Positions 44,778 to 63,220 of a stretch of 64,000 nucleotides of DNA are shown in pieces. The translations under genes and the position numbers were made by a program. The stretch comes from Mesoterricola silvestris. GTDB taxonomy: Bacteria; Acidobacteriota; Holophagae; Holophagales; Holophagaceae. The notes beneath the pieces were generated by a model. It did not search any database. It was not told where the DNA came from and saw nothing but the letters and a program-made list of their open reading frames with translations. The first letter of the stretch is position 1. Every line of letters starts with the position of its first letter. The DNA lies in the NCBI RefSeq assembly GCF_030295405.1, contig NZ_AP027080.1, forward strand, positions 3,890,001-3,954,000. Reading direction: 5' to 3'.

Positions 44778-44919
44778 CGTGATCTCGTCAGGGTGCTGGA
44801 TGATGCCTCTTGGAGACGCGACGGGCCCCAGGATTCAAGCCCGCGGCAATTCTTTCCCTTTCCAGGATAAACATAATTTACCTTGAGCTCCGGAACCAAA
44901 GCGAACCTGAGGAGCGCCC

Positions 44920-45105
44920 GTGGAAAAGAGCCTCATCAACGAGATCCTCCATTTCCGCGACGCCAGGAACTGGAATTCCTCGATACCGTCGATCCGAGGC
45001 CATCATGCAGCCGGCGCGACGCTCCTCCGGCTGCAAACGCAGCCTGCATTCAGCCAAGCCCCCCCGTCCGGATCCGGTAAGATGGCTGGGCCCGGCCAAC
45101 CTTGA
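44920..45105 (+). pseudogene. Truncated MazG-like nucleotide pyrophosphohydrolase fragment
   Basis: From the GTG at 44920, with GAGGAG 6 bp upstream, the first 19 residues (MEKSLINEILHFRDARNWN) match the N-terminus of MazG-like dNTP pyrophosphohydrolases, which continue with a 'FHxPKNL' and EAxEL metal-site helix. Here similarity stops abruptly after RNWN and the open frame continues as unrelated sequence to 45105. The catalytic helix is absent, so the gene is broken. Confidence 0.5.
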
Positions 45106-48167: not shown

Positions 48168-48767
48168 ATGGCCCTGACCTCGGGCGATCTGATCAAGCAC
48201 CTGTCCAAACTTGGCTTCAGCCCCGAATCCGGGGCAGGAAGCGAGACCGTCCTCGTCTCGAGGCCCACGCACCACTGGCTGGACGACGCGGGCCGCCACC
48301 TCATGGCGCTGGAAGTCCGGTTGGACCCGGATGGGCACTACACCCAGGTGCTGGGTCCCGCCTTCGCCTCCGGGAACCTCTTCGCGGAGCCGGACCAGGC
48401 CTTCGCGCTCACGGAGACCATGACGGCCTTCCATCTTCTCCGTTTCGTCCATGCGCCCGATGACGGAGAGATCCGCCCCAAGATCGAGCACGTGAACCTC
48501 GCGGCCGAAGCCCTGGGCGTGGAGGCGGTGCCCTCCCTCATCAGGCTGGCCATGGAGATCTTCGATCCCACTTTGACCTTCCTGGAAACCCTGGCGAGGA
48601 CCGGACGGCGGGACACGTGGCTCCTGGAAGCCGACCCTCCGGAGCTCCAGCGCCAGCAGGCCCGCCTGCGGAGCCTGCAGGAGCAGGTGGAGGCGGCCGA
48701 ACGCGAGCTCGACAAGGTCCGCCAGGCCCGGACCTTCAGCGCCCCCAAACTGCCCAAGTTCATCTAA
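48168..48767 (+). CDS. Unknown protein at head of the AAA/protease-restriction operon (199 aa)
   Basis: Not recognised. The protein is soluble with a central 'ALTETMTAFHLLRFVHAP' helix and a C-terminal coiled coil ('LQRQQARLRSLQEQVEAAERELDKV', abbreviated to 'LQEQVEAAERELDKV'). Its stop lies 11 bp before the start of the Clp-FtsH fusion gene, so the two are almost certainly co-translated partners; it could be an adaptor or substrate receptor for that protease. GAGGAG precedes the ATG. Confidence 0.75.
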   Translation: MALTSGDLIKHLSKLGFSPESGAGSETVLVSRPTHHWLDDAGRHLMALEVRLDPDGHYTQVLGPAFASGNLFAEPDQAFALTETMTAFHLLRFVHAPDDGEIRPKIEHVNLAAEALGVEAVPSLIRLAMEIFDPTLTFLETLARTGRRDTWLLEADPPELQRQQARLRSLQEQVEAAERELDKVRQARTFSAPKLPKFI

Positions 48768-48778
48768 GGAGAAACCAG

Positions 48779-51700
48779 ATGCCCCTTCAGAATGCGACCT
48801 CGCTGCAGAAGGACCTCTTCGCCGGGGCCCGGCGCTGCGCGCTGGCCCATGGCCGGAAGGCCGTCGGCATCGAGGACGTCCTCGCGTCCTTCGCCGGCCT
48901 TGCCAGGGACCCCCGCCTCGCTCCCGTGACCCGCGAGGGCCTGGGCCTCCCCCCGGAGGCGGTGGTCTGGCCGGAGGACCTGGTCCGGCGCTGGCGCACC
49001 GCCGTGGACCGGGTCCGCTCCGCCGAAGCCCCCATGCCCTACGAACCCGCCCTGCAGCCTCCCCTGGACCACGCCCTCCGGGCCCGCGGTTTTGATCTCG
49101 GGGCCCTGCTCGCCGGGATCGCGAAGCTGGACGCCCCCTCCGCCCGCGAACTGCGGCGCCTGAATCCGCGGCAGGAAGGGGACGGCACGCCGGAAACCCT
49201 GGCCCGGCGCCTGCGCCGGGCGGGTGAAGCCGGCGAGGACCTCCGGACCTACCTCGAGGCCCGGCTGTTCGGGCAGGACCACGCCATCGAGACCCTGGTG
49301 AAGGCCTACGTCAGTTCCCAGATCAGGCCCCAGAGCGCGGGCCCGCGCGCCATCTTCACGCTCATGGGCCCCCAGGGCACCGGGAAGACCCTGGCCGCCA
49401 GGTGCCTCGCGGAGCACCTGGGCCAGACGGGAGACCGCTGTGGCGAACCCCTGATCCTGGACATGGCCACGCACACCGGCCACCAGGCCCAGGAAAAGCT
49501 CTGGGGCTTCAGCAAGTCCTACACCGATGCCCGTCCGGGCATCCTCACCGGTTTCGTGAAGGCCAACCCCGAGGGCGTCGTCGTCTTCGACGAGATCGAA
49601 AAGGCCTCCTCCGCGACCCTCCAGGCCCTCCTGGGCGTCCTGGACCGCGGCAAGGGCCGGGACGACTACGACGAGGAGGAGGTGGACTTCTCCCGTGCCA
49701 TCCTCTTCTTCACCACGAACCTTGGCCGGACGCGCCTGGCTTCCGCCCGCGGGGCCCTGGACCGGGAAACCCTTCTGGACATCCTGGGGTCAGAAGTCGG
49801 GCTTCCCCCGGGACAGTCCGGCGCCCCCGTCCCGCTCCTCTCCCCCGAGCTGGTGTCCCGGCTCGCCAAGGGCGCGGTCCTGGCCATGGAACCCCTGACC
49901 CAGGACGGCTTCCTGGCGGTGTTCCGCAAGGCCTTCAGCCAGTCCCTGGAGGCCGCGAAGCTCCCCATCCCCCACCTGCCCGGGGACGCCGCCCTGCTCT
50001 TCCTGCTGCGGCACGCCCAGGGCCTGGACGGCCGCAAGGCGCAGGCTGTCGGCGTGGACCTGGCCGACCGCGTCATCCAGGACCTCGTGCGGGCCACGGA
50101 AGAACGCCCCGGGACGGAGCTCGCGGACATCCGGTTCCAGGTCTCCCCCGAAGCGGCCCACTGGCTCCGGCGCAAGGCGGACGCGGTCGCCGTGAACCTC
50201 CTGGTCGTCGGCGAGGACCTTGACGCCAAGCGCTTACTTGGCGGGCCCGGGATCACCTGGCGGTCCGTGGCGTCCCTCGCCGAGGCCGCGACCGCCCTGG
50301 AAACCCTGCGGCCGGATGGAGTGGCCTTCCTGGGGACGGCGCAGGATGGGCAGGATCTCCCCTTCAAGGGGCCCCGGATCGCCCTGGCGGAGGCGGTCCC
50401 CGGCCGGGACCCGCGCGCCGAGGCGGCGTCCTTCCTGAACCAGGTGCGCCGCGGACGGCTCGTGAAGGAGCAGGTCCGCTCCCATCAGTCGCTCTCCTTC
50501 GTCCTGGAGTCGAAGGTCCTGAGGACGGAAGGCCTGCCGCACACCCTGGAACTGCGGCTGTCGAGCCCGAAGGAGACCCGCTTCCTCCGCCACGGGGTCG
50601 CGGACAGCCCCATCCGCATGATGGAACGCCCTGAACAGGGCTTCGAAGCCATCATCGGGCACGGCCAAGCCAAGGCCCGGTTGTCGAAGCTCGCGGAGCG
50701 CCTGGGCGCCGCGGGGTTCCAGCCGATGCCGGCCAAGGGCTACCTCCTCGCGGGCCCTCCCGGCACCGGCAAGACCAGCCTCGCCCGTGCCTTCGCTGCG
50801 AAGGCCGGCGTGCCCTTCTTCGCCCTGGGCCCCGCCGACCTCGCGAGCCCCATGAAGGACGAAGGCGCCCGCCGGATCCGCGAGGTCTTCGCACTGGCGG
50901 CGGAGTACGCGCCTTCCGTGGTCTTCATCGACGAGCTGGACGGCATCGCGCCGAACCGGAGCCAGGCCGGCCATTCCATGGAAGGGCGGCAGATCCTGAC
51001 GACCCTCCTCACCTGCATGGATGGGATCCGCCCCAACGAAAGGCCCGTGTTCGTCCTGGGCGCGACCAACAGGCCGGATCTCCTGGACGAAGCCCTCCTC
51101 CGGCCGGGGCGCCTGGATGCGGTCCTGGCCCTGGACCTGCCCGGCGCCGCCGATCGGGAAGCCCTCCTCCGGGCCCGCCTCCAGCGGATTCCGGACCAGG
51201 TGCCGCTGGACCTTGAAGCCCTGGCGAAGCGGAGTCTCGGACTCAGCCAGGCCGCCCTGGACGGCCTGGTCCGGGAAGCGCTCCAGGCCGCCGCCTGGGA
51301 GGGCCGCTCCACCCTCACCCTGCGGGACCTCCAGCGGGCCCTGGAGACGGCACGCCTGGGCGACCGGTCCGAAAGCGCCCCGCACACCGAAGCCGTGAAG
51401 CGCCTGGTCGCCGCCCACGAGGCCGGCCACGCCATCGTCAGGGCGGCCCTCCTACCTGATTCCCCCGTGACCCGCATCGATATCGTCCCCCGCGTGAGCG
51501 GAGCCGGCGGAGTTACCGAAAGCCTGCCGCAGGAAGGTTCCTGCGCCCTTCGAAGCCGCTCGAGGCTGCGTGCCGAACTGGCCGCCCTCATGGGCGGACG
51601 AGCTGGCGAGCTGATGCTGGTGGAGAGCGAGGACCTGGTGACGGATGGCTGCCAAGGTGACTTGGCCCAGGCCACTCGGATGACCCGCCGGGCAGTCCTC

Positions 51701-51958
51701 GAAGGGGGAATGGATCCCGAAGTGGGATTGGTGAACGTGACGCTGGCCGCGCGGGAAGGGTGGGACGACAGGATCACCGCTCGTGTGGCCGCCTGGATTG
51801 AGGAAGGTCATAGCCGCGCGTTGGAGGTGCTGAGCGCGAACCGGAAGGCCTGGGAGGGCTTGGTGGAACTGCTTCTGGACAAGGAGTCCCTCGAGGGCGA
51901 GGACCTGGGGACGCTCCTGAAGGATGTGGGACCTTGCCGGTGCGTATCGACGAAGTAG
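48779..51958 (+). CDS. Clp-type AAA+ module fused to FtsH-type AAA+ and M41 metalloprotease (soluble)
   Basis: The 1,059-residue protein starts at the ATG at 48779 with AAGGAG upstream. Residues 1-150 resemble a Clp N-domain ('ALAHGRKAVGIEDVLASF'). A ClpA/ClpB D2-like AAA+ follows: Walker A GPQGTGKT (197-204), Walker B 'VVFDEIEKA' (Asp271-Glu272). A second, FtsH-like AAA+ has GPPGTGKT (659-666), 'VFIDELDGIAPNRS' and 'GATNRPDLLDEALLRPGRLD'. The C-terminus is an M41 zinc protease: HEAGH (880-884) and third ligand Asp961 in 'TDGCQGDLAQAT'. No TM helices are present, unlike FtsH. It is probably an ATP-driven protease with two motors, in an operon with restriction-like genes. Confidence 0.9.
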   Translation: MPLQNATSLQKDLFAGARRCALAHGRKAVGIEDVLASFAGLARDPRLAPVTREGLGLPPEAVVWPEDLVRRWRTAVDRVRSAEAPMPYEPALQPPLDHALRARGFDLGALLAGIAKLDAPSARELRRLNPRQEGDGTPETLARRLRRAGEAGEDLRTYLEARLFGQDHAIETLVKAYVSSQIRPQSAGPRAIFTLMGPQGTGKTLAARCLAEHLGQTGDRCGEPLILDMATHTGHQAQEKLWGFSKSYTDARPGILTGFVKANPEGVVVFDEIEKASSATLQALLGVLDRGKGRDDYDEEEVDFSRAILFFTTNLGRTRLASARGALDRETLLDILGSEVGLPPGQSGAPVPLLSPELVSRLAKGAVLAMEPLTQDGFLAVFRKAFSQSLEAAKLPIPHLPGDAALLFLLRHAQGLDGRKAQAVGVDLADRVIQDLVRATEERPGTELADIRFQVSPEAAHWLRRKADAVAVNLLVVGEDLDAKRLLGGPGITWRSVASLAEAATALETLRPDGVAFLGTAQDGQDLPFKGPRIALAEAVPGRDPRAEAASFLNQVRRGRLVKEQVRSHQSLSFVLESKVLRTEGLPHTLELRLSSPKETRFLRHGVADSPIRMMERPEQGFEAIIGHGQAKARLSKLAERLGAAGFQPMPAKGYLLAGPPGTGKTSLARAFAAKAGVPFFALGPADLASPMKDEGARRIREVFALAAEYAPSVVFIDELDGIAPNRSQAGHSMEGRQILTTLLTCMDGIRPNERPVFVLGATNRPDLLDEALLRPGRLDAVLALDLPGAADREALLRARLQRIPDQVPLDLEALAKRSLGLSQAALDGLVREALQAAAWEGRSTLTLRDLQRALETARLGDRSESAPHTEAVKRLVAAHEAGHAIVRAALLPDSPVTRIDIVPRVSGAGGVTESLPQEGSCALRSRSRLRAELAALMGGRAGELMLVESEDLVTDGCQGDLAQATRMTRRAVLEGGMDPEVGLVNVTLAAREGWDDRITARVAAWIEEGHSRALEVLSANRKAWEGLVELLLDKESLEGEDLGTLLKDVGPCRCVSTK

Positions 51959-52044
51959 CGGACCGGCAGGTCCGAAGCCCATGCTACGATTCACCACCCG
52001 TTGAAAACTGTTTGGTTGCTTTGCTTTACATACCGAGGCAGTAC

Positions 52045-53442
52045 ATGGCGTTTCGATTGGCGTTGCCGCAGATCCAGCTTGTGGATTTCGACCCCGAGGG
52101 CGTACTGCTCATCCGTGGCCAGGCGGGAAGCGGGAAGACCACGGTCCTGCTGGAACGGGCCCAGGCGCTGCTGAGGACCTACCCGAGGGCCACCGTGCTG
52201 GTGCTTGCCTTCAACGAAGCGCTCTCGTCGCGGGCCAGGCGTACCCTTGGCGCGGCCGTCGCGGAGGGGCGACTGGAAGTCCGGACGCTCCACGACTGGG
52301 CGAAAACCTTGGCACGCCATGAAGGCGTTCAGTTCCCACCGGGCTTCTGGGCGGATTCCACGACCCGCGAACGCTTCCTGGGCAACATCCTTAAGCGCCC
52401 ATCCATGAACATCCAAGGAACACGGCTGGAGGCCTGGACGGTTTCCCAATGGAGTGATGAGGTGGAGTGGCTGATCGGCCAGGATATCCAGTCTCTTGAG
52501 GACTATCTGGATACGCCTCGCCGAGGGCGTGGCCGATCGGGGGGCCCAGGGCGGGAGGACCGGGCCAAGGTCTGGGCCGTTTTCGAGCAGTACCGGAAAG
52601 AACTTTCGGCCAAAGGCAAGCACGACCTCCACGACATTCTTGGCCTGATCCGCAAGGCCAGTGAACAAAGCCAGAAGCCTCAACCGCAGAAGGCTTCCTT
52701 CGATTTCGTGCTTGTGGACGAGGTCCAGGACCTCGACCTGGCGTGGCTGAAGGCCGTGGCCTCCATCGCAAGGGTCGGCACGACCTTCTCGGGCGATTTC
52801 GCCCAACGCATCTATCGCCGCCATTTCACCTGGAAGGCCGCGGGAATCGAGCTCCCCCCGGCGCGCTCCCGATTCCTGGCGGGCACCCATCGCAACCCCA
52901 GGGCCATTGTGGCGCTCGCGCAAAAGGTTCTCGGCGAAGCGGATCCCTCCGCGGATACGGGGTTCGAGTCCCCAAGCCCCGACGCCATGCTGGACGACGG
53001 GCAGGATCACGTTTATTTCATCCAGCATCCCCAGGTGCGGGAGGCGCGCAAACGAGCCCTTCTGCACGCAGTCGATTGCTGGAAGGGGGGAAGGGACGTG
53101 GTCATCGCCGTCCCCTTCAGGCGGATCGCCGATGAATCCATCAAGGTTCTCGGGGAGCTCGGCACAAAAGCCGGATTCCTCCAACGAAGGGACCTGGCTG
53201 ATCGGGATGGTGCGGTTCTGCCGCTCACCACCTTCCACCAGATGAAGGGCCTGGAATGCGAGGACCTCGTGCTCCTGGGCATGGAGGACGACTTGTTCCC
53301 AGGGTGGTTCCTCTCTGACCTGCAAGGTGCCGAACTCGAGGACAAACAGGCAGAACTCCGGAACCTGCTCTACATGATCGTGACCCGGCCACGCCGTTCC
53401 CTGACGCTTTCCATGGGCGGGAAGGTGTGCCGGTTCCTGTAA
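52045..53442 (+). CDS. Short UvrD/Rep-like superfamily I helicase
   Basis: The 465-residue protein has Walker A 'GQAGSGKTTVL', Walker B 'LVDEVQDLDLAWL', motif III-like 'SGDFAQRIYRRH', motif V 'TFHQMKGLECEDLVLLGM' and motif VI 'LLYMIVTRPRRSLTL'. It has the 1A and 2A cores but little of the 1B/2B subdomains of full-length UvrD, a shape seen in defence-associated helicases. It probably translocates on single-stranded DNA. I use the ATG at 52045 (GAGG at 6 bp). It lies 86 bp after the protease gene and 38 bp before the McrB-type gene. Confidence 0.88.
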   Translation: MAFRLALPQIQLVDFDPEGVLLIRGQAGSGKTTVLLERAQALLRTYPRATVLVLAFNEALSSRARRTLGAAVAEGRLEVRTLHDWAKTLARHEGVQFPPGFWADSTTRERFLGNILKRPSMNIQGTRLEAWTVSQWSDEVEWLIGQDIQSLEDYLDTPRRGRGRSGGPGREDRAKVWAVFEQYRKELSAKGKHDLHDILGLIRKASEQSQKPQPQKASFDFVLVDEVQDLDLAWLKAVASIARVGTTFSGDFAQRIYRRHFTWKAAGIELPPARSRFLAGTHRNPRAIVALAQKVLGEADPSADTGFESPSPDAMLDDGQDHVYFIQHPQVREARKRALLHAVDCWKGGRDVVIAVPFRRIADESIKVLGELGTKAGFLQRRDLADRDGAVLPLTTFHQMKGLECEDLVLLGMEDDLFPGWFLSDLQGAELEDKQAELRNLLYMIVTRPRRSLTLSMGGKVCRFL

Positions 53443-53480
53443 GTGCGTTCAAGTATTCGACAAGCCCCCAAGGAGTCCGC

Positions 53481-55403
53481 GTGGAAGTACTCAACCTGCA
53501 GCCTTACAGCGTAGTGACGGAAAAGCCGGGCGGACATGGCCTGACGTTTCGTGACCATGGCGACCTGCAATTCAACTTGAACAGGGCCTTCCGCGAGATT
53601 CGCGCAAATCAAGAATATCTGGCGATCGATGGAAGCCATCTCTGGCAGATCAGCTTCATCCAGACTCCATGCAATGGGACCAAACAATATCTTCACTTCA
53701 AAGAAGAGGAGGCACAGGAACTGGCGGAGGTAGGCCTCCAGTGGCTCAACCCCGTCGAGGACCAGGCACAGGTTCCCAAAATGGGAAAGGAGCACATCCT
53801 TGAGCTGCTCGGGAGCCTCCGGGATGCCGGGAAGGAAAGCTTCTGGAACTGGGCCATCGAATCCCATCGTGAGCAGGAAAACCATTTCGCGAGTCTGTTG
53901 AGCACCAACGGAATCGACCCCATCGGCTGCTTCAAGGTCCTCCTGGAAGCGGACCGGAGCGGGCCTTTCTGGCGATGGGCCGTTCAGATCGACAAGGAAG
54001 GTCGAAACAACCTTGCCCGCCTTTTCGACCTGAACGCCCTGCGGCCGTTTCTGGAGGAATGGAGGGCCCAGTTCTGGGAAGAGGCGGGGCGGCGCGGGGA
54101 TGTCCTCGGATGGTTCGGCCTCGTGGATGAGTGGATGGACTTCGCTGCCCGGGGTTCCAGGTTGTCGTCCCAGCCCTCCGTTCAAAAGGCTTCGCCCCTG
54201 CCCTTGGCCGCGGAGCCAATGCCTGCGCAGACCATCTATTTCGGCCCCCCCGGAACGGGCAAGTCCTGGACCATCGCCGCCCGGATCGCCTCGGACAAAC
54301 CCTCCTCCTTCCCCATCCAGTTTCATCCGGAATATACCTACGGTGACTTCTTCGGCAAACTGGTGCCCCTCACCGTCAATGACCCTTCAAAACCCGATGA
54401 GCACCGGATCGACTACCGTGTCCACTTGGGCCCTTTCCTGAAGGCCCTCTCGAAGGCGTATACATGGATGGCTTCTGGCCAATCCAATGCCTCGAATGGA
54501 TCGGGTGAAGTTTGTCTTGTCATCGATGAGATCAATCGAGGGAACTGCGCTGCCATTTTCGGGGAAACCTTCCAGCTCCTGGATCGCGAGATCGGCGATC
54601 GCCACATTCCTCATGAACTTCGCGAAGAGGGACCTGTCGTTTCCAGGGCGGGGTGGTCGTCCTATCACATCGAACTCCCGCCTGTTCTCAGGAAGGCGTT
54701 CTTCGAATACTTCCTCGAGGCATTGCTGGAGGGCACGTCCGAGGAAGGCCTCGAATTCCCAAAGGAGCCCTGGAAGGATGCCGCGAAAGTCCTGAACCGG
54801 CTTCACGAAGGTGGGGAACCCAAGGTCACGCCGGAAGACTTCCCGGCCAGTCCCATTGCCGTGCGGAGGAAGGAAGATTTTGCTCTCCTGCGTCAATTGG
54901 CCCACGACGGGTTGATCGCGTTACCGCCGAACCTGCACATCCTGGCATCCATGAACACCTCCGATGAATCCGTCTTCTTCATGGATTCGGCCTTCAAGCG
55001 ACGGTGGGACTGGGAGCATGTGGGGATTGGTGAAGTTGCTCCCACCCGGCTTTCGGGAATCAGGGTTGAAGGCAAGGAGTACACGTGGTGCGAGCTGGTC
55101 GGCAAGGTCAACGCGTTCCTCAAGGCCAATGCGGATCGCATTCGCGGGATCGATGACAAGCAGATCGGCTACTGGTTCATCAAGCCGGAACCCAGCTCCC
55201 AGCCAGGAAACGCCTTCGAGGTCTCCCTCAAGTCCTTGAAGGGAAAGCTGCTCCATTACCTCTGGGACAGCGTCTTCAGCCGCGACCGGAGGCCTTTGAA
55301 GGATCTTTTGCCGGATGAGGCCCGGGCCCGGACCGTCACGTTCGGGGACTTCGTGGGAGGCAACAACCTCGAGTTGATCCTAGATAGACTCATGACCATG
55401 TGA
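53481..55403 (+). CDS. mcrB: McrB-type AAA+ NTPase (restriction motor subunit)
   Basis: The 640-residue protein starts at a GTG at 53481 with AAGGAG at 5 bp. An N-terminal region (1-240) of no clear family would be the specificity domain. The AAA+ core has Walker A GPPGTGKS (255-262), Walker B 'VIDEINRGN' (Asp349-Glu350) and the McrB signature 'MNTSDES...FKRRWDW' (from Met491). McrB proteins hydrolyse GTP, assemble as hexamers and drive an McrC-type nuclease on modified DNA. The nuclease gene begins 10 bp after its stop. The N-domain does not look like the DUF3578 or EVE readers I know, so the recognised DNA mark is open. Confidence 0.9.
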   Translation: MEVLNLQPYSVVTEKPGGHGLTFRDHGDLQFNLNRAFREIRANQEYLAIDGSHLWQISFIQTPCNGTKQYLHFKEEEAQELAEVGLQWLNPVEDQAQVPKMGKEHILELLGSLRDAGKESFWNWAIESHREQENHFASLLSTNGIDPIGCFKVLLEADRSGPFWRWAVQIDKEGRNNLARLFDLNALRPFLEEWRAQFWEEAGRRGDVLGWFGLVDEWMDFAARGSRLSSQPSVQKASPLPLAAEPMPAQTIYFGPPGTGKSWTIAARIASDKPSSFPIQFHPEYTYGDFFGKLVPLTVNDPSKPDEHRIDYRVHLGPFLKALSKAYTWMASGQSNASNGSGEVCLVIDEINRGNCAAIFGETFQLLDREIGDRHIPHELREEGPVVSRAGWSSYHIELPPVLRKAFFEYFLEALLEGTSEEGLEFPKEPWKDAAKVLNRLHEGGEPKVTPEDFPASPIAVRRKEDFALLRQLAHDGLIALPPNLHILASMNTSDESVFFMDSAFKRRWDWEHVGIGEVAPTRLSGIRVEGKEYTWCELVGKVNAFLKANADRIRGIDDKQIGYWFIKPEPSSQPGNAFEVSLKSLKGKLLHYLWDSVFSRDRRPLKDLLPDEARARTVTFGDFVGGNNLELILDRLMTM

Positions 55404-55413
55404 GGGGTATCGG

Positions 55414-57063
55414 ATGCCGGCTCCGGAGCAAAATCCGCATCCCTGGAAAATCGTAGGCCCCAGGCCCGGCATGGGCTGGGGCAGAGTCGGCTGGAAGGGG
55501 AATGAACTCGTCTTCCCGGAAGGCCTTTCCACGGAAGCTGAAGGCTGCGCCCATCGCCAGATCAAGCTCGCCATGGTCCTTCAGCTTATGACCCCAGGGT
55601 CCAACAACCAGAAGATCGCGGTCAGCGAATCACCTGGATCAGAAGGGACGGGGGCCGTCCATACCGTCGACGGTGAAGCTCCTCCCCGCCGGGAACAAAC
55701 CATGGACGGGGGTTTGGCCAAGCTCCTGGCCTTGGCGGATGATCCGGAACTGCCATGCCTGGTGCAGCGCAGGGGAATCGTAAGGGATCCGGACTGGGAC
55801 CAGTTCGAGCGCCACCTGGCCCACGCCATCTATGAGCCCAATAACGCAATCTACCTGCCCGAGGGCATCGGACCACGCAGGATCAAGACTCACGGCATCA
55901 CGGACATCGCATGCCTGTATGCCTTCATCGTCGAGGAGCTCCTGAGAGCGGGCCACCAGGATCTTGCCCAGGGGATGCCGCTTTTCCTGAGGAGCCTCGC
56001 GGAGGAATTCCGGGAGCGCTGGCCGGATTTCGCCGTCCCCTTTCTTGACGATGCCCAGGGGTTCAACAGGTTGCGGCATCTTCTCGACCAGATCCACCGG
56101 ACGACGCCCCTCCGGGATGACCGGTATTTCGATTTCTTTGAAGCCATCGAAAGCTACCTCTACGAGGGCGACGCCTGGACCGATTCACCCACCTGGGGTA
56201 CGGACTCCTTCGCCCATGTGTGGGAGGCGCTCTGCATGAACCACGTGGAGATGCACCCGGAAACCTACGGCAGCCTCCTGGCCATGGATAGACGGGAATG
56301 CGACTGGCCGGCCCCGGCCCACATGGACCGCTGGAACGGGTCCGGGCGGTCCGAGGAGAGCTTCTGGATCCACAAGGGATTCCGGAGCAAACTTGCCTCC
56401 GCCCTGAAATGGGTCAATCCGGGCAACGAGGAGGTGGAATCCGGCCATCGCGAGGATTGCCCGGCCAGGGGCACAAAAAGAAAAGTCACCGGCCGTGGGG
56501 ACTGCCCGGATTGCCGTGAGCTCCGAGCCAGGAAGCCCCTGGAACCGGACGCGGTTCTGGTATCGGAACGGGTTCTGCCCGGCAACGGTCTAGGGAAAAA
56601 GAAGCGCCTCCTGCGCCGCTGCGCCTCAGAAGGACCCAAGAAGCTGATCCCGAAACCAAGCCGCCGCTCCGCGTTCCGCGTCCGCAGCAAGGTTGTCGTT
56701 GTGGATGCCAAGTACAAGCACGTCTATTGCAAACTTGTCACCCGGCAGGACCCTGACCTCCCTGATCGCGAAATCTCCATCCTCCTGAACCAGGATTTCG
56801 AGAAGCAGCTTCGCTACGAGGTTGCCCTGCGCCGCGCCATCCCGTGCGAAAGGGTCACGCACGAGTTCTGGGTTCCTGCCTCCGCCGGCGGAACACGAAG
56901 GATCGTCATCCCCAGCTGCCCGTGGGTTGCCCTGCGCCCCATGCCCATCGAACGGCTCCTGGATGAATACCTTCAACGCCACGGTTGGAAGCTTCTGGGC
57001 TCAAGACTTGCCCCACCAGGGCTTGCATCAAATCCGCCAAGGCCAGTCACTCAACCCGGGTGA
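55414..57063 (+). CDS. PD-(D/E)XK nuclease, McrC/LlaJI-like partner of McrB
   Basis: The 549-residue protein has a C-terminal nuclease core: Asp379 in 'EPDAVLV', then 'VVVDAKYKHV' with Asp431 and Lys433, the D...D-x-K arrangement of PD-(D/E)XK enzymes and the 'DAKYK' form seen in McrC/LlaJI nucleases. Residues about 345-372 contain a His/Cys cluster ('HREDC', 'DCPDC') that may bind zinc. The N-terminal 300 residues are unfamiliar. Position directly after mcrB supports a two-subunit motor-nuclease complex. The start has GAGGGG upstream. Confidence 0.82.
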   Translation: MPAPEQNPHPWKIVGPRPGMGWGRVGWKGNELVFPEGLSTEAEGCAHRQIKLAMVLQLMTPGSNNQKIAVSESPGSEGTGAVHTVDGEAPPRREQTMDGGLAKLLALADDPELPCLVQRRGIVRDPDWDQFERHLAHAIYEPNNAIYLPEGIGPRRIKTHGITDIACLYAFIVEELLRAGHQDLAQGMPLFLRSLAEEFRERWPDFAVPFLDDAQGFNRLRHLLDQIHRTTPLRDDRYFDFFEAIESYLYEGDAWTDSPTWGTDSFAHVWEALCMNHVEMHPETYGSLLAMDRRECDWPAPAHMDRWNGSGRSEESFWIHKGFRSKLASALKWVNPGNEEVESGHREDCPARGTKRKVTGRGDCPDCRELRARKPLEPDAVLVSERVLPGNGLGKKKRLLRRCASEGPKKLIPKPSRRSAFRVRSKVVVVDAKYKHVYCKLVTRQDPDLPDREISILLNQDFEKQLRYEVALRRAIPCERVTHEFWVPASAGGTRRIVIPSCPWVALRPMPIERLLDEYLQRHGWKLLGSRLAPPGLASNPPRPVTQPG

Positions 57064-57398
57064 ATCTCAGTCCACGGTAAGCCCAGCCCCAAGGCCACCT
57101 GTGGAAGGCGTTGGGCCAGCCTTACCCGGTCACCCACTCAAAACAGCGAGGCCCCCCCTTATCCGGGGCCCAAATCCGGCCCCCGGCCCGGGAACTTACC
57201 TCCGCTTCGACCCGTTCATCCCCCGTTTTCGACCGTTCAGGGAAATTTTCCGGTTCGGGCCGGGATTGGGTGTAGCCTGTCTCCAACCCAACCCATGCCC
57301 GCGGATTGAACCCAGATCCCATGGCATAAATGCTGGATAAACAATTGCTTAAACATAATTGATTTAGTTATTAACTCGCAATGTCGAGGGGGAGTTTT
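57064..57398. other. 335-bp intergenic region with an AT-rich promoter zone
   Basis: The first half is GC-rich without features. From about 57,320 the sequence is strongly AT-rich and contains CAATT...AATTG inverted repeats, the likely promoter of the RHS gene. I could not identify a consensus -35/-10 pair. Confidence 0.4.
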
Positions 57399-60300
57399 GT
57401 GCGTAAATGGTGTTACCGGCTTTTGAGCACATCCATTAATCTGCTGTTCATCACCCTGGCCCTGGTGGGAATGCCCGGGGTTCTCCGGGCCCAGTCCTTC
57501 CAATCCAGCTTTTCCGAAGTGAAATTCGATCGGGCGAAAGGACCGGCCACCCTGAATGCGGGCGTCCAGGTGGACGTCGCCTCGGGCGCGGCGAGCATGG
57601 AGATCCCGTTCGGTCCGGGCATTGGGCAGCGCGGACTCACCTTCCGGCCGACCCTGAGCCTCCGGATCGCTCCCCAGGTGGCGGTCAGTTCCATCTTCGA
57701 AACCTACGTGGCCCAGGTCAGCAGCCGCGGAACCCTGTACTACAACACGACCACCGTGGACACGATCTACCAGCGCGGATACGGAACCTCGAGCTTCTCG
57801 CCAGGCTCCTTCGATCTGGCGCTGGGTTCAACGGATGAAACCCAGAGCGCGTACAGGCTTCCCGGCGGAGGCGGGACCCTCGTGGGCACGGTACCGCCTT
57901 CCATGACGGCCGCCGCGGCCGGGCAGCTCCTCGCGCAATTCGGCGTGTCCGGAAGCCTGGGGACCCTCGCCGGCGATGTGGGGTATCCGGCGGCGCCCTT
58001 CATCCAGGTGGGATCCACGGGCGCCTTGATTCTGGGGATCCTGGACGCCGCCGGGGACGTGCAGGACTGGCACTACCAGGAGAGCATCGACACGAATGCC
58101 ATCCAGTGCCGCTGGCCCAGGCGGATCCTGGTGGTGGAGGGGGATGTGGCCTACGAGTTCACCTATGTGAGCCACCGATTCCGGACCCAGCTCCGTCCCT
58201 ACCTCGTCAACACGTCCCGCACCTCCCTCTTCAGCGCCAACTATGCCCTCACCCACATCCGGAACCGCTTCGGGGAACGCGTCGACTTCACCTACGCTCC
58301 GGATGGGATCGGCTACACCGCCACGTGGAGCACGAACCCATCGGTCCGGATCCAGGTCGCCGTGGAGGGATCCGTGGGGGCGCCGGGCATGCCGAGCCTG
58401 GTCTCCAGCGCCTATGGCATGGGCGCCCTGACGCGGGTCCGGGTCTCCTACCAAGGCATCAGCCACCCCGTTTCCAGCTTCCTGCTGGATCTGGGCTGCC
58501 CGAAACCCATGGAGGCGTTGACCCTGGAAACCGGAGGCGAACCGGACAGCGCCGTCACGAAGCAGCTCCACGGCCAGCGGAAAATGAACGTGGTCTGGGG
58601 CGAGGCCGCCCACTGCCTCCAGCCCGTGAAGGTCCAGCAAACGGATACGGGCGAATCCGTCCAGTTCGCGTACGCCGTGGCCGGGACCGGCGCGACCTGG
58701 GATGGCGTGACCGTTTCGCCGACCGTCCTGAGGAGCGTGACCCTGCCCAACCGGATCGTCACCCTTGACTGGAAGCCGTACACCTACCAGGCCAACAGCT
58801 CCCCCAACGCCTGGGGCATCGCCCCGTCCAGCCAGCGGCGTCCTTCCTGGGCCTTCGGCGTGTCGGGCCTGACGGATGCGGACCTGATATCCGGCTCGGA
58901 ACGCGCCACCGGCTACACCCGGGTCGTGCCGCAGCTCAACTGGCTCACCGCGGTGCCGCCCGTCGGCACCGATCTGACCGAGTCCTGGGTTTCCACCGCG
59001 TTCTACACGGCCGTCACGACCCCCGACGGGCAGGTGGCCGTCCACCGGTTCGTGGAGCCCGACCCCGCGAACGGGATGCAATTCCTGGCCTACCTCAAGC
59101 ACGTGGAGCGCGAGACCCGCTACTACGCGGCCGGAGTGGGTTGGGAGGCGGACCTGCCGACCCCCGATCCCGGCGCCAGCTCGGCCTACAAGTGGGTGGT
59201 GAAGGACCGCCTCAGCGTGCACGCCCCGGGCAACGCCCGGGGGGTGCTGACGGACTACCCGGTGCCCTATGCGACCCGCACCCGCACCTGGGACAAGGAT
59301 GCCCAGACCTTCACCGCGGAGGAGACGACGAACTGGGAGGCCTCCGGCCTGGGGTGGACCCAGGTCCACCGCACCACGGCGCTATCCGCCTCCCCCTCCC
59401 TCGGGTTCGACGTGTGGAATCTGGCCAGCCAGGGCGCCGGCTGGAGCTCGCCGGGGGCGGCGTCGGGCACGGAGGACCTGGTGGTCCGAACCCTCGATTC
59501 GCGGATCCCCCAGTGGCTCCTCGGCCGGGTGGCCACCGAGACCACCTCCCGGGGAACCGACGCGACCCAGAACGGCAGCACCGCGAATCCTCCACCCAAG
59601 GTGGCCCGGGAACGGGATGGTGCCCTGAATACCCTCAGGTCCGTGACCACGGGGGACCCGGCGAGCCTTGCCGTGGTCACCACCCTGGATTACCAGGGAG
59701 CCTCGGGCCTTGCCGCCGCCGAAATGCTGAAGGCGACCCTTTCCAGTCCCAACGGCCTCGCCTTCAGCGGGAGCATGGGCGTCGCCGCCTACGGGTACGA
59801 CGGCAACGGCTATCTGTCGAGCATCGGCGTCCGGCCCAACGCCGGCCTCCTCCTGACCTCGGGCCAGGACCAGGACGAAGTGGGCCGGCCAACGGCCCAG
59901 CGTGACGCCGACAACCGGACGACCACGTTCGAGTGGGACGGGGCCGGACGCCTCACCCGCATCACGCCGCCCGGCATGCAGGCCACGGAGATCGCCTACG
60001 ACGACGTTTCCCACCGGGGCCTGACCGTCACCCGCGGCGCCCAGGTCCAGGCGCTCCGCTATAACGGGTACGGAGAACTCGTCCTGGAGCGTCGCCTCGA
60101 CCCCAACGGCGGGTGGTCCCACCGGATCCACGGCTACGACGGCGCGGGCCGCCCCACGGGTGAAACGGTCTGGTTGTCCGGGGACGGAGCCGACCACGAG
60201 ACCCAGTGGATGCTCCCGAACCTGACCCGCCAAACGACCGTGACGGTCCCCGGGGAATCCGTCTGTAAGAAGTGGGGCGCCATCAATCCCGATACCGGCG

Positions 60301-62888
60301 AAAGGGCCTGCCTCCAGTGGCAGACCAGCCCGCCCACGACCACCGTGACCGCGGCGCTGTACCGGGGTTCTTCGCTCACCTACGATTCCCGGGGAAGGGC
60401 CGACACGTCCATCGATCCGGCCGGCCTGACCACCGTGACCGCCTACCCGGCATCGGCCGGATTCAAGAAGGTGGTGACCGTTGCCGGCACCCGCACGACG
60501 CAGTTCCTCCATGACGCCGCGGGCCGCCTGAAGGCGGTCACGGACGCCCTGGGCCAGGTGGCCGCCTACGGCTACGACGCCTCGAACCGCCTCGTCAGCG
60601 TGAGCCAGTCCAGCGGTTCCCACAGCCAGGCCCGGTCCTGGACCTACAACGCGCTGGGCTGGCTCACCTCGCTGGAGCAGCCGGAAAGCGGCACCACCAC
60701 CTATTCCGGATTCACGGTCGCGGGCCGGCCCCAGGTCACGGACTACAACGGCAGGTCCGTGACGGCCACCCCCGACGGGCTGGGCCGGGTGCTTTCCGTC
60801 GTTTCCAGCGACGGCACCGTGAACCAGAGCTTCACCTATGACACGGCGCCCGGCGGCAGAGGCAAGCCCGCCTGGAGCCAGGATGGGCAGATCCAGGCCA
60901 CGTACGGGTACGACGGCACCACCGGGCGGCTCAGCACCTTGACGACCCTGGCCGCGGGCCAGAGTCTCACCCAGACGCTGGGCTACGACGCGTATGGCAA
61001 CCGGACCTCGGGTTCCACGGGGCACGCGGACTGGACCCAAAGCTATTTCGAAGCCGCCGGCCTCCCCAGGCTCCTCTCGAGCGGAGGCCAGACCATCGCG
61101 GACAGCAGCGACTGGTCGACCAGCTTCGAGCCGGTGAGCTGGCTTCCCCGGGCCGTGGCCTACGGAAACGGGGCATCCAGCCACTTCTCCTACGGCCCGG
61201 ACCAGATGCGGCTGGGGACCCTGGAGCACTTCGGTGCGGGAAACGCCGCCCTGGAGCGCTGGGGCTACGCGTACGATCCCGCCGGGAACCTGGCCCAGGT
61301 CCTGGATCTCAGGACCCTGGAGACGGACGTGTTCGGCTATGACGCGCTCAATCGCCTCGTCTCCGCCACCCTCCAGAGTCCGAGTTACGGCCCGCAGAGC
61401 CAGACCTTCACCTACGACGCCTTCGGGAACCGGATCAGCGGAGCGACCACCAGCCCGGGAACCGTTTGCCCCTCCACGGCCTACGTGAGTTTCGATCCCA
61501 ACGATGCCGCGCTGTGGGGCCACAACCGTCTGCCCGTTCAGATGGCCAACGGCGCCTACACCGGCGCCCAGTACGATGCCCAGGGAAACCTCACCCAGGT
61601 CTTTGAGCGCCCCGGGGAGTCGGGCAAGGTGATCACCCTGGGCTACGATGCCCTGGGCCGGGTGACCTCGGTGGAGCATTCCTCCCGCGGGGTCCAGGAG
61701 CGGTACCAATACCGTGCCGACGGCCTGCGCACCGTCATCCAGGACTATCTCGGGGGGACCTACCAGAAATCCCGGATTCAGCTCTACAATGATGCCCGGC
61801 AGCTGGTGAGCCAGTGGGAGGTCAGTCCCAGCGGATCCTTGACATGGACGCGTGACGTCTTCTACGTGGGCACCCAGGGCACGGCGGAACGGGATTCCGC
61901 AGGCCTCCACGTCACCCAGGTGGACCACCTGGGAAGCCCCCGGGTGGTCACGGGCCCCGCGGGGACGGTTGAATCGCGGCAGAAATACCTGCCCTTCGGT
62001 GAACTCCTCGAGCAGTCGGGGACCTTCCGGACAGCGAAGGGGTTCACGGGACATGAGCAGACGGATGCATCGGGGCTGATATACATGCAGGCGCGGTTCT
62101 ACCTGCCGCAATACGGACGGTTCGCGAGCCCCGATCCGGCCAGGGACCAGCATTTCGAGTTCACCCAGAGCTGGAACATCAACAGCTACGTGCAGAACAA
62201 TCCGGTCATGAGCACAGACCCAACGGGGCTGCAGGAAGTGCCCAAAGATCCGCGGGAAGTCACCGAAGAGGCCTCAGTGATACCGACTAAGAGAGAAGAT
62301 TCCGGTTTCGGTGATATGACCATGAGGAATAAGGAGAACCGGAAGGCGTCGAAAGCGGAGAAACCGGCGGGATGGATAACAATCCATTCTTCAACCAGAG
62401 GAGAGGCAGGTATCACTGCCGGCCATTCGTATATTGAAATTACTACCGCGGAAGGAGAGCACCACACTTACGGGACATGGGGAAACACCTCTGGTGGTGG
62501 GAACCTGGGGTTGAGAGAAGACTTTGAATTGAAGATGACACCGACCGGTGAAGCAACTAGAACCCAAGAGATGAACGGTGACCAATTGAGAGCGGTCTTG
62601 GGACTTGTTCAGGCGGCCAAGGAAAAAGGAAGGGATGCCTGGTCGCTAGGTAACCCATGTAGCACTTTTGCTCATGCTGCGTGGGAGGCCGGAACTGGTG
62701 AGGATCTAAAGTTCACCAAAGGTGGCGTGAGCAATCCGACGTCTCTAAAGGAGGGGATTATTGCTGCGAATGGTGGGGTCGCTCATGGTGGCCTTTCAAA
62801 AATACCTGCCGATCAAAATCGAACCCATCGGGCGCCGATGTCGCCGTTTCTGAACTCCCTTGGACCAGCCTTATCGTCGGTCTTTTGA
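57399..62888 (+). CDS. Sec-exported RHS/YD-repeat protein with C-terminal polymorphic effector module
   Basis: I place the start at the GTG at 57399, preceded by GAGGGGGAG, giving 1,829 residues; an ATG at 57381 has no ribosome site. A signal peptide ends 'PGVLRAQ'. The middle is YD-repeat sequence ('YDALGRVTSVEHSSRG', 'YDAYGNRTSG'). The RHS core ends with 'GFTGHEQTDASGLIYMQARF' and 'NPVMSTDPTGLQ'. Beyond that, about 210 residues with visibly lower GC form the variable effector: His1676 in 'AGHSYIEI', 'YGTWGN' and Cys1754 in 'NPCSTFAHAAWE'. The His-before-Cys order suggests a permuted papain-like (NlpC/LRAT-type) enzyme. A small gene follows that may be its immunity partner. Confidence 0.88.
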   Translation: MRKWCYRLLSTSINLLFITLALVGMPGVLRAQSFQSSFSEVKFDRAKGPATLNAGVQVDVASGAASMEIPFGPGIGQRGLTFRPTLSLRIAPQVAVSSIFETYVAQVSSRGTLYYNTTTVDTIYQRGYGTSSFSPGSFDLALGSTDETQSAYRLPGGGGTLVGTVPPSMTAAAAGQLLAQFGVSGSLGTLAGDVGYPAAPFIQVGSTGALILGILDAAGDVQDWHYQESIDTNAIQCRWPRRILVVEGDVAYEFTYVSHRFRTQLRPYLVNTSRTSLFSANYALTHIRNRFGERVDFTYAPDGIGYTATWSTNPSVRIQVAVEGSVGAPGMPSLVSSAYGMGALTRVRVSYQGISHPVSSFLLDLGCPKPMEALTLETGGEPDSAVTKQLHGQRKMNVVWGEAAHCLQPVKVQQTDTGESVQFAYAVAGTGATWDGVTVSPTVLRSVTLPNRIVTLDWKPYTYQANSSPNAWGIAPSSQRRPSWAFGVSGLTDADLISGSERATGYTRVVPQLNWLTAVPPVGTDLTESWVSTAFYTAVTTPDGQVAVHRFVEPDPANGMQFLAYLKHVERETRYYAAGVGWEADLPTPDPGASSAYKWVVKDRLSVHAPGNARGVLTDYPVPYATRTRTWDKDAQTFTAEETTNWEASGLGWTQVHRTTALSASPSLGFDVWNLASQGAGWSSPGAASGTEDLVVRTLDSRIPQWLLGRVATETTSRGTDATQNGSTANPPPKVARERDGALNTLRSVTTGDPASLAVVTTLDYQGASGLAAAEMLKATLSSPNGLAFSGSMGVAAYGYDGNGYLSSIGVRPNAGLLLTSGQDQDEVGRPTAQRDADNRTTTFEWDGAGRLTRITPPGMQATEIAYDDVSHRGLTVTRGAQVQALRYNGYGELVLERRLDPNGGWSHRIHGYDGAGRPTGETVWLSGDGADHETQWMLPNLTRQTTVTVPGESVCKKWGAINPDTGERACLQWQTSPPTTTVTAALYRGSSLTYDSRGRADTSIDPAGLTTVTAYPASAGFKKVVTVAGTRTTQFLHDAAGRLKAVTDALGQVAAYGYDASNRLVSVSQSSGSHSQARSWTYNALGWLTSLEQPESGTTTYSGFTVAGRPQVTDYNGRSVTATPDGLGRVLSVVSSDGTVNQSFTYDTAPGGRGKPAWSQDGQIQATYGYDGTTGRLSTLTTLAAGQSLTQTLGYDAYGNRTSGSTGHADWTQSYFEAAGLPRLLSSGGQTIADSSDWSTSFEPVSWLPRAVAYGNGASSHFSYGPDQMRLGTLEHFGAGNAALERWGYAYDPAGNLAQVLDLRTLETDVFGYDALNRLVSATLQSPSYGPQSQTFTYDAFGNRISGATTSPGTVCPSTAYVSFDPNDAALWGHNRLPVQMANGAYTGAQYDAQGNLTQVFERPGESGKVITLGYDALGRVTSVEHSSRGVQERYQYRADGLRTVIQDYLGGTYQKSRIQLYNDARQLVSQWEVSPSGSLTWTRDVFYVGTQGTAERDSAGLHVTQVDHLGSPRVVTGPAGTVESRQKYLPFGELLEQSGTFRTAKGFTGHEQTDASGLIYMQARFYLPQYGRFASPDPARDQHFEFTQSWNINSYVQNNPVMSTDPTGLQEVPKDPREVTEEASVIPTKREDSGFGDMTMRNKENRKASKAEKPAGWITIHSSTRGEAGITAGHSYIEITTAEGEHHTYGTWGNTSGGGNLGLREDFELKMTPTGEATRTQEMNGDQLRAVLGLVQAAKEKGRDAWSLGNPCSTFAHAAWEAGTGEDLKFTKGGVSNPTSLKEGIIAANGGVAHGGLSKIPADQNRTHRAPMSPFLNSLGPALSSVF

Positions 62889-62902
62889 TCTCTGGAGGTT
62901 TC

Positions 62903-63220
62903 ATGCTTGTTTGGGCAAAATCGGCTCTATTGTCAATTCTGTCATTGGGAACAGTGCTGGAACAGCACGCCACAATCGACCTGAAAGTAGAGGTTCGGCG
63001 AGAACAGCCGATGGTTGTGAAGGTCACTGGCGGGTGTGGGCACAGTTCGATGGGAATTAAGAAGGTTGTCCAGAAACGCGAAGGCTCTTCTATCCGCGTA
63101 CTTGTTTACCTAAGGGTAGGTGAGCCGGAAGGAGATTTCTCCACTGAAATCACTGTGCCTGATGATGTGAGACAAATTTTGTTTGGGAAAAGAGGGCAGG
63201 TGATTTTCTCCCGACCTTAG
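62903..63220 (+). CDS. Candidate immunity protein of the RHS effector (105 aa)
   Basis: It starts 14 bp after the RHS stop, with GGAGG 4 bp before the ATG. The N-terminus is a signal-like hydrophobic stretch ('AKSALLSILSLGTVLEQ'), followed by a beta-rich domain ('IDLKVEVRREQPMVVKVTGG', 'IRVLVYLRVGEPEGD'). No family recognised. Small periplasmic genes directly after an RHS toxin tip are usually immunity proteins; base composition matches the tip rather than the genome. Confidence 0.6.
   Translation: MLVWAKSALLSILSLGTVLEQHATIDLKVEVRREQPMVVKVTGGCGHSSMGIKKVVQKREGSSIRVLVYLRVGEPEGDFSTEITVPDDVRQILFGKRGQVIFSRP

Follow-up and report, generated by a model that had tools for sequence, protein, structure and literature searches.

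The 64,000-nucleotide window analyzed here (contig NZ_AP027080.1, positions 3,890,001 to 3,954,000) comes from the acidobacterium Mesoterricola silvestris, whose genome is a single contig of 4.99 Mb, and it carries five successive plus-strand ORFs separated by gaps of 11, 86, 38 and 10 bp. Gene 1 (48168-48767) encodes a 199-aa protease partner protein, gene 2 (48779-51958) a soluble two-motor AAA+ zinc protease of 1059 aa with the Pfam domains AAA_2, AAA and Peptidase_M41, gene 3 (52045-53442) a short SF1 helicase of the UvrD/Rep family (465 aa; PF00580 and UvrD_C), gene 4 (53481-55403, GTG start) a 640-aa McrB/R1.LlaJI-like AAA+ GTPase (AAA_5, PF07728), and gene 5 (55414-57063) a 549-aa McrC/R2.LlaJI-like PD-(D/E)xK nuclease. 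When ORF coordinates and motif positions were re-read, the ORFs, gaps and motifs reported for all five genes in the initial annotation proved real, and its component assignments (Clp-FtsH protease fusion, SF1 helicase, McrB and nuclease) are right. A 170-bp direct repeat flanks the 19-kb segment in which the five genes lie; its copies, at window positions 44806-44975 and at 122-291 of locus L039 (genome 3954122-3954291), are 90% identical, both cover the start of a MazG-like gene, and only the downstream one leads into a complete MazG-like gene and a gene for a Schlafen-group-3 helicase. Directly downstream of the five genes, positions 57381-62888 encode an 1835-aa RHS-repeat protein that could be a polymorphic toxin; the small ORF after it (62885-63220) has no Pfam match.

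The gene 2 product starts with an N-terminal helical region (residues ~1-130), continues with a Clp-type AAA motor (~150-440), a receiver-like insert lying between the two motors (~448-570; 50120-50488, plus strand) and an FtsH-type AAA motor (~618-860), and ends in an M41 peptidase (~870-1045; PF01434, 112.5 bits). Walker A at 197 and 659, Walker B at 270 and 716 and HEAGH at 880 are all intact, the third zinc ligand, D961, is present and invariant in eight members, and the protein has no transmembrane-like segment (highest 19-residue hydropathy mean 1.13), in keeping with the soluble Clp-FtsH protease fusion proposed at the outset. In VIA-align comparisons of the AlphaFold model (pLDDT 78), residues 618-1048 match FtsH 3kds with Z 33.4, and residues ~134-460, returning near 580, match the second motor of ClpB/ClpC with Z about 25; because the Clp match returns near 580, the ~448-570 segment seems to interrupt the Clp small domain close to its end. 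The first motor also matches TIGR02639 at E 2.6e-27. The receiver-like character of the insert is suggested by an alternating beta-alpha pattern in the model and by weak Pfam Response_reg matches in sister proteins (L078, E 7.5e-4; L080, E 0.0083), which fall under the curated cut-off. In the alignment, its phospho-acceptor Asp is kept in L078, L079, L080 and L043 but not in the window copy.

AAA+ proteases usually rely either on a separate peptidase (ClpP) or on a membrane-bound FtsH core, and one soluble polypeptide joining a Clp-type motor to an FtsH-M41 core departs from both layouts. Gene 2 shares with FtsH the FtsH-type AAA domain and the M41 domain with HEAGH and the third zinc-ligand Asp, but it has no membrane anchor, carries an extra Clp-type motor, a receiver-like insert and a dedicated partner gene, and scores 302.7 bits against an NCBIfam FtsH equivalog cut-off of 600. 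Its first motor resembles the second Clp motor of the ClpA/ClpB/ClpC unfoldases; unlike these, the protein has a single Clp motor, fused to FtsH-M41 rather than docking on ClpP. No description of the fused Clp-FtsH-M41 architecture was found in the open-license literature searched, the sole near case being the FtsH ternary conflict systems, which likewise contain a two-AAA-domain protein that ends in an FtsH-type ATPase, but in which the first AAA domain is an inactive FtsH type and which are defined by MoxR and vWA partners (Kaur et al., 2020, PMC7159879). The first AAA domain of gene 2 is an intact Clp type, and neither MoxR nor vWA was among the neighbors scanned at 45.5-63.2 kb, several of which have no Pfam match at all. 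The fusion, together with its dedicated partner gene, is thus apparently undescribed.

Gene 1 has no match in Pfam, PADLOC or NCBIfam, and a plasmid search found none either; a sister protein matches YbjN (PF10722) no better than E 0.063, and the domain can be described as weakly YbjN/T3S-chaperone-like. The structural model is of low confidence (pLDDT 53), and a fold search with it returned no significant match; it places an alpha-beta domain before a C-terminal helix (residues 158-189), so the "coiled-coil protein" that the initial annotation had put at the head of the five genes is a fitting description of the tail and not of the domain preceding it. The homology of the partner proteins is better resolved: an earlier profile comparison of the pair from the window and L036 with three others was weak when taken alone, and a seven-member comparison made it clear, with pairwise E values down to 1e-25 and a terminal P-x-x-I/L in common. 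In all seven of the acidobacterial fused loci found, the second M. silvestris copy included, a gene-1 homologue adjoins the protease (directly so in L036, L078, L079, L080, L146 and L149), either upstream or downstream of it, with a spacing anywhere between an 8-bp overlap and a 24-bp gap. From domain content, the most economical mechanism would be an adaptor-fed, ATP-driven, two-ring zinc protease. Gene 2 is expected to form hexamers, in which the Clp-type ring would unfold substrates and pass them through the FtsH-type ring into the M41 zinc-protease chamber; gene 1 would be a partner dedicated to it, acting most likely as an adaptor that delivers substrates or licenses them and possibly docks on the protease via its conserved C-terminal P-x-x-I/L, and control is likely to be exerted at the receiver-like insert.

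Relatives of the protease are patchily distributed. M. silvestris itself encodes two more versions. One, P0006, is again fused (40% identical); a gene-1 homologue lies 22 bp upstream of it, and no counterparts of genes 3-5 adjoin it. The other (L037) is split, a Clp-like ORF being followed by an FtsH-like ORF. Among 93 genomes of the class no further genome with a fused copy was evident, and split versions were found in G014 and G031. A sample of the phylum with follow-up searches added fused members in G328, G185, G069, G450 and G540, each with a directly adjacent gene-1 homologue, and outside Acidobacteriota fused members were found on Tannerellaceae, Lachnospiraceae and Clostridiales contigs; the fused protease thus spans loci from Acidobacteriota, Bacteroidota and Bacillota, its abundance outside Acidobacteriota being underestimated because the search there relied on peptide patterns alone. 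Downstream of the Lachnospiraceae protease (L042) lies a true YbjN-family gene (E 1.2e-6). Plasmid searches with the linker found no match, and a scan of viral contigs for the protease yielded nothing beyond partial, Clp-like matches to the AAA core. An M41-region tree unites the fused and the split proteases in a single group to the exclusion of housekeeping FtsH (ultrafast bootstrap 81), and the window copies group with the split copies (support 100 in this tree, 0.95 in another). Near both fused-protease islands of the M. silvestris genome lie identical 1164-bp ORFs in opposite orientation (L039 8851-10014 and L138 18769-19932), transposase-like by eye.

What the protease pair does in the cell can be read in two main ways. 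Close to an even chance, in our estimate, is an accessory stress or regulatory protease, serving quality control or timed proteolysis and traveling on islands. This reading draws on the pair in G540, which has ordinary chromosomal neighbors, a GC3 matching its surroundings and a protease that ranks with the window copy's closest relatives, as well as on the receiver-like insert, on small TerB- and YbjN-like genes next to L078 and L079, and on L041, where the protease lies downstream of kinase, PP2C phosphatase and FHA genes in a locus that also has response-regulator genes. It fits less well with the repeated placement in defense islands in M. silvestris, where all three versions of the protease lie in or beside such islands, and with the contexts of L080 and L042. 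Besides the window copy with its neighboring restriction genes, the second copy has Mza genes about 5-13 kb away (MzaB, 1e-89; MzaC, 1e-144; MzaE, 6e-76) and further defense-like genes in its island, and the split copy adjoins Druantia/DISARM-like genes (DruE, 1e-117; DrmD, 3e-109). In L080 (2988-13030), a fused protease and its gene-1 homologue lie beside an NYN-domain gene, a Cas6-RT-Cas1 fusion and Cas2 in a type III CRISPR locus, and the L042 protease lies downstream of a TIR gene. Both M. silvestris islands also hold integrases: the Mza operon of the second-copy island, running from L036 15480 to L138 4235, stands beside a phage-type integrase, and DruE-, DrmMI- and DrmD-like genes stand beside an integrase and the split protease from L139 9539 to L037 6346.

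These neighborhoods, with the patchy distribution of the fused copy, make it possible, at somewhat lower odds than a stress or regulatory role, that the pair is a phage-defense module in which the partner would sense or recruit and the two-motor protease would break down phage or host proteins. Set against this are the habit of islands to collect unrelated cargo, the ordinary chromosomal context of the G540 relative and the pairs in G328 and G185, which have no recognized defense neighbor as far as was looked at (here without a PADLOC scan). The most specific form of the proposal, that genes 1 and 2 constitute an undescribed anti-phage proteolytic module present in several phyla, namely a soluble two-ring Clp-FtsH zinc protease under the control of a chaperone-like partner and a receiver-like switch, carried three times in the defense islands of one genome (two fused, one split) and in one further case as type III CRISPR cargo, must be regarded as rather unlikely.

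The restriction function suggested for genes 4 and 5 is well supported. Gene 4 carries GPPGTGKS at 255 and the McrB signature MNTSDES at 491, its profile matches the solved McrB structure 6ut3 at E 4e-28, and over the region they have in common it shows 42-45% identity with three homologues from plasmids. For gene 5 no Pfam family reaches its cut-off, RE_LlaJI (PF09563; 10.8 bits, E 0.28, cut-off 23.6) included; its catalytic residues D379 and D431-x-K433 are present, and the PD...DxK pattern is kept in three homologues, each next to a McrB homologue. These McrB-nuclease pairs lie on plasmids of Geminocystis, Nostoc and Hymenobacter (L045-L047), without the protease and without a UvrD helicase, and no gene upstream of them resembles the N-terminal domain of gene 4 (~240 aa), a candidate specificity domain. 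Within Acidobacteriota the McrB profile matched M. silvestris only, among 396 genomes; an initial scan of genome contigs with gene 4 found nothing, and a phage search with gene 5 gave no match. The short SF1 helicase of gene 3 is confirmed as UvrD/Rep type (PF00580, E 7e-19). It is probably part of the same unit, to which composition and position join it; no UvrD helicase was found beside the homologous pairs on the three plasmids. Plasmid relatives of gene 3 adjoin restriction-modification or DarT genes, neighborhoods that fit an accessory role without proving one.

The characterized system closest in behavior to genes 4 and 5 is LlaJI, in which the McrB-like subunit gives specificity and the PD-(D/E)xK subunit is believed to cut (PMC1459862). 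As in LlaJI and McrBC, a McrB-like GTPase with MNTSDES stands beside a PD-(D/E)xK nuclease; the N-terminal domain of gene 4 is unrelated, however, and a helicase lies next door. LlaJI proper was rejected because the PF09563 cut-off is not reached and no 5mC methyltransferase is adjacent (of six PF00145 matches in the genome, none is in the window). An IMG/VR contig (L125, 6383-10405) carries a related LlaJI-type cassette with a 5mC methyltransferase, a McrB-like protein and an RE_LlaJI nuclease. CoCoNuT systems of type II/III also combine McrB and nuclease genes with an SF1 helicase, but theirs, CnuH, is UPF1-like and carries a coiled-coil insert (PMC11090510), whereas gene 3 is UvrD/Rep-like (PF00580, 465 aa), and this assignment was rejected as well. 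So was Gabija: gene 3 resembles GajB, yet none of the five genes matches GajA. The safest label for genes 4 and 5 is a distant McrBC/LlaJI-type pair. We would expect a LlaJI/McrBC-type restriction unit formed by genes 4 and 5, probably with gene 3, in which the N-terminal domain of gene 4 would recognize DNA, either modified or sequence-specifically, its AAA+ GTPase ring would translocate, gene 5 would cut and the helicase would assist.

The locus very probably represents two neighboring units, the protease pair of genes 1 and 2 and the McrBC/LlaJI-type restriction unit. In the 12 other protease loci (nine fused and three split; 7.5-20 kb fetched for each, with short flanks at some, L146 being an 8-kb contig and L041 ending just past the protease), no McrB, nuclease or helicase gene of this kind was found, and the protease is absent from all four other loci with McrB-type pairs (L045-L047 and the related pair in L125). 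GC3 is 0.875 and 0.886 in genes 1 and 2, against 0.770, 0.732 and 0.742 in genes 3, 4 and 5; the break falls between genes 2 and 3, and the 95% interval of gene 2 lies clear of those of genes 3-5. Since the protease and the McrB pair share no other locus found and the composition breaks between them, two juxtaposed units are favored, with the limit that rare five-gene combinations could exist in genomes outside the sample. Co-transcription is possible because the five genes lie on one strand with short gaps; a promoter scan of the 86-bp gap between genes 2 and 3 found no site with a sigma-70-type consensus, which may miss others. The single integrated defense system proposed in the initial annotation, in which the protease would activate, degrade or complement the McrBC-like nuclease, is highly improbable, for the shared strand, the short gaps and the inclusion of all five genes in one lower-GC3 segment flanked by the direct repeat are outweighed by the GC3 break and by a search across genomes in which protease and McrB were together in no other locus found, the protease pair occurring also in an ordinary chromosomal context (G540).

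The novelty claimed for the locus accordingly does not hold for the five genes as a system and survives in smaller form, as a two-gene protease module found often but not always beside defense genes. The case illustrates that two independent cassettes with operon-like spacing can be mistaken for one new system. If the protease pair acts in defense, ATP-driven zinc proteolysis would join the known effector types; if it does not, it would still be a new regulated protease worth study.
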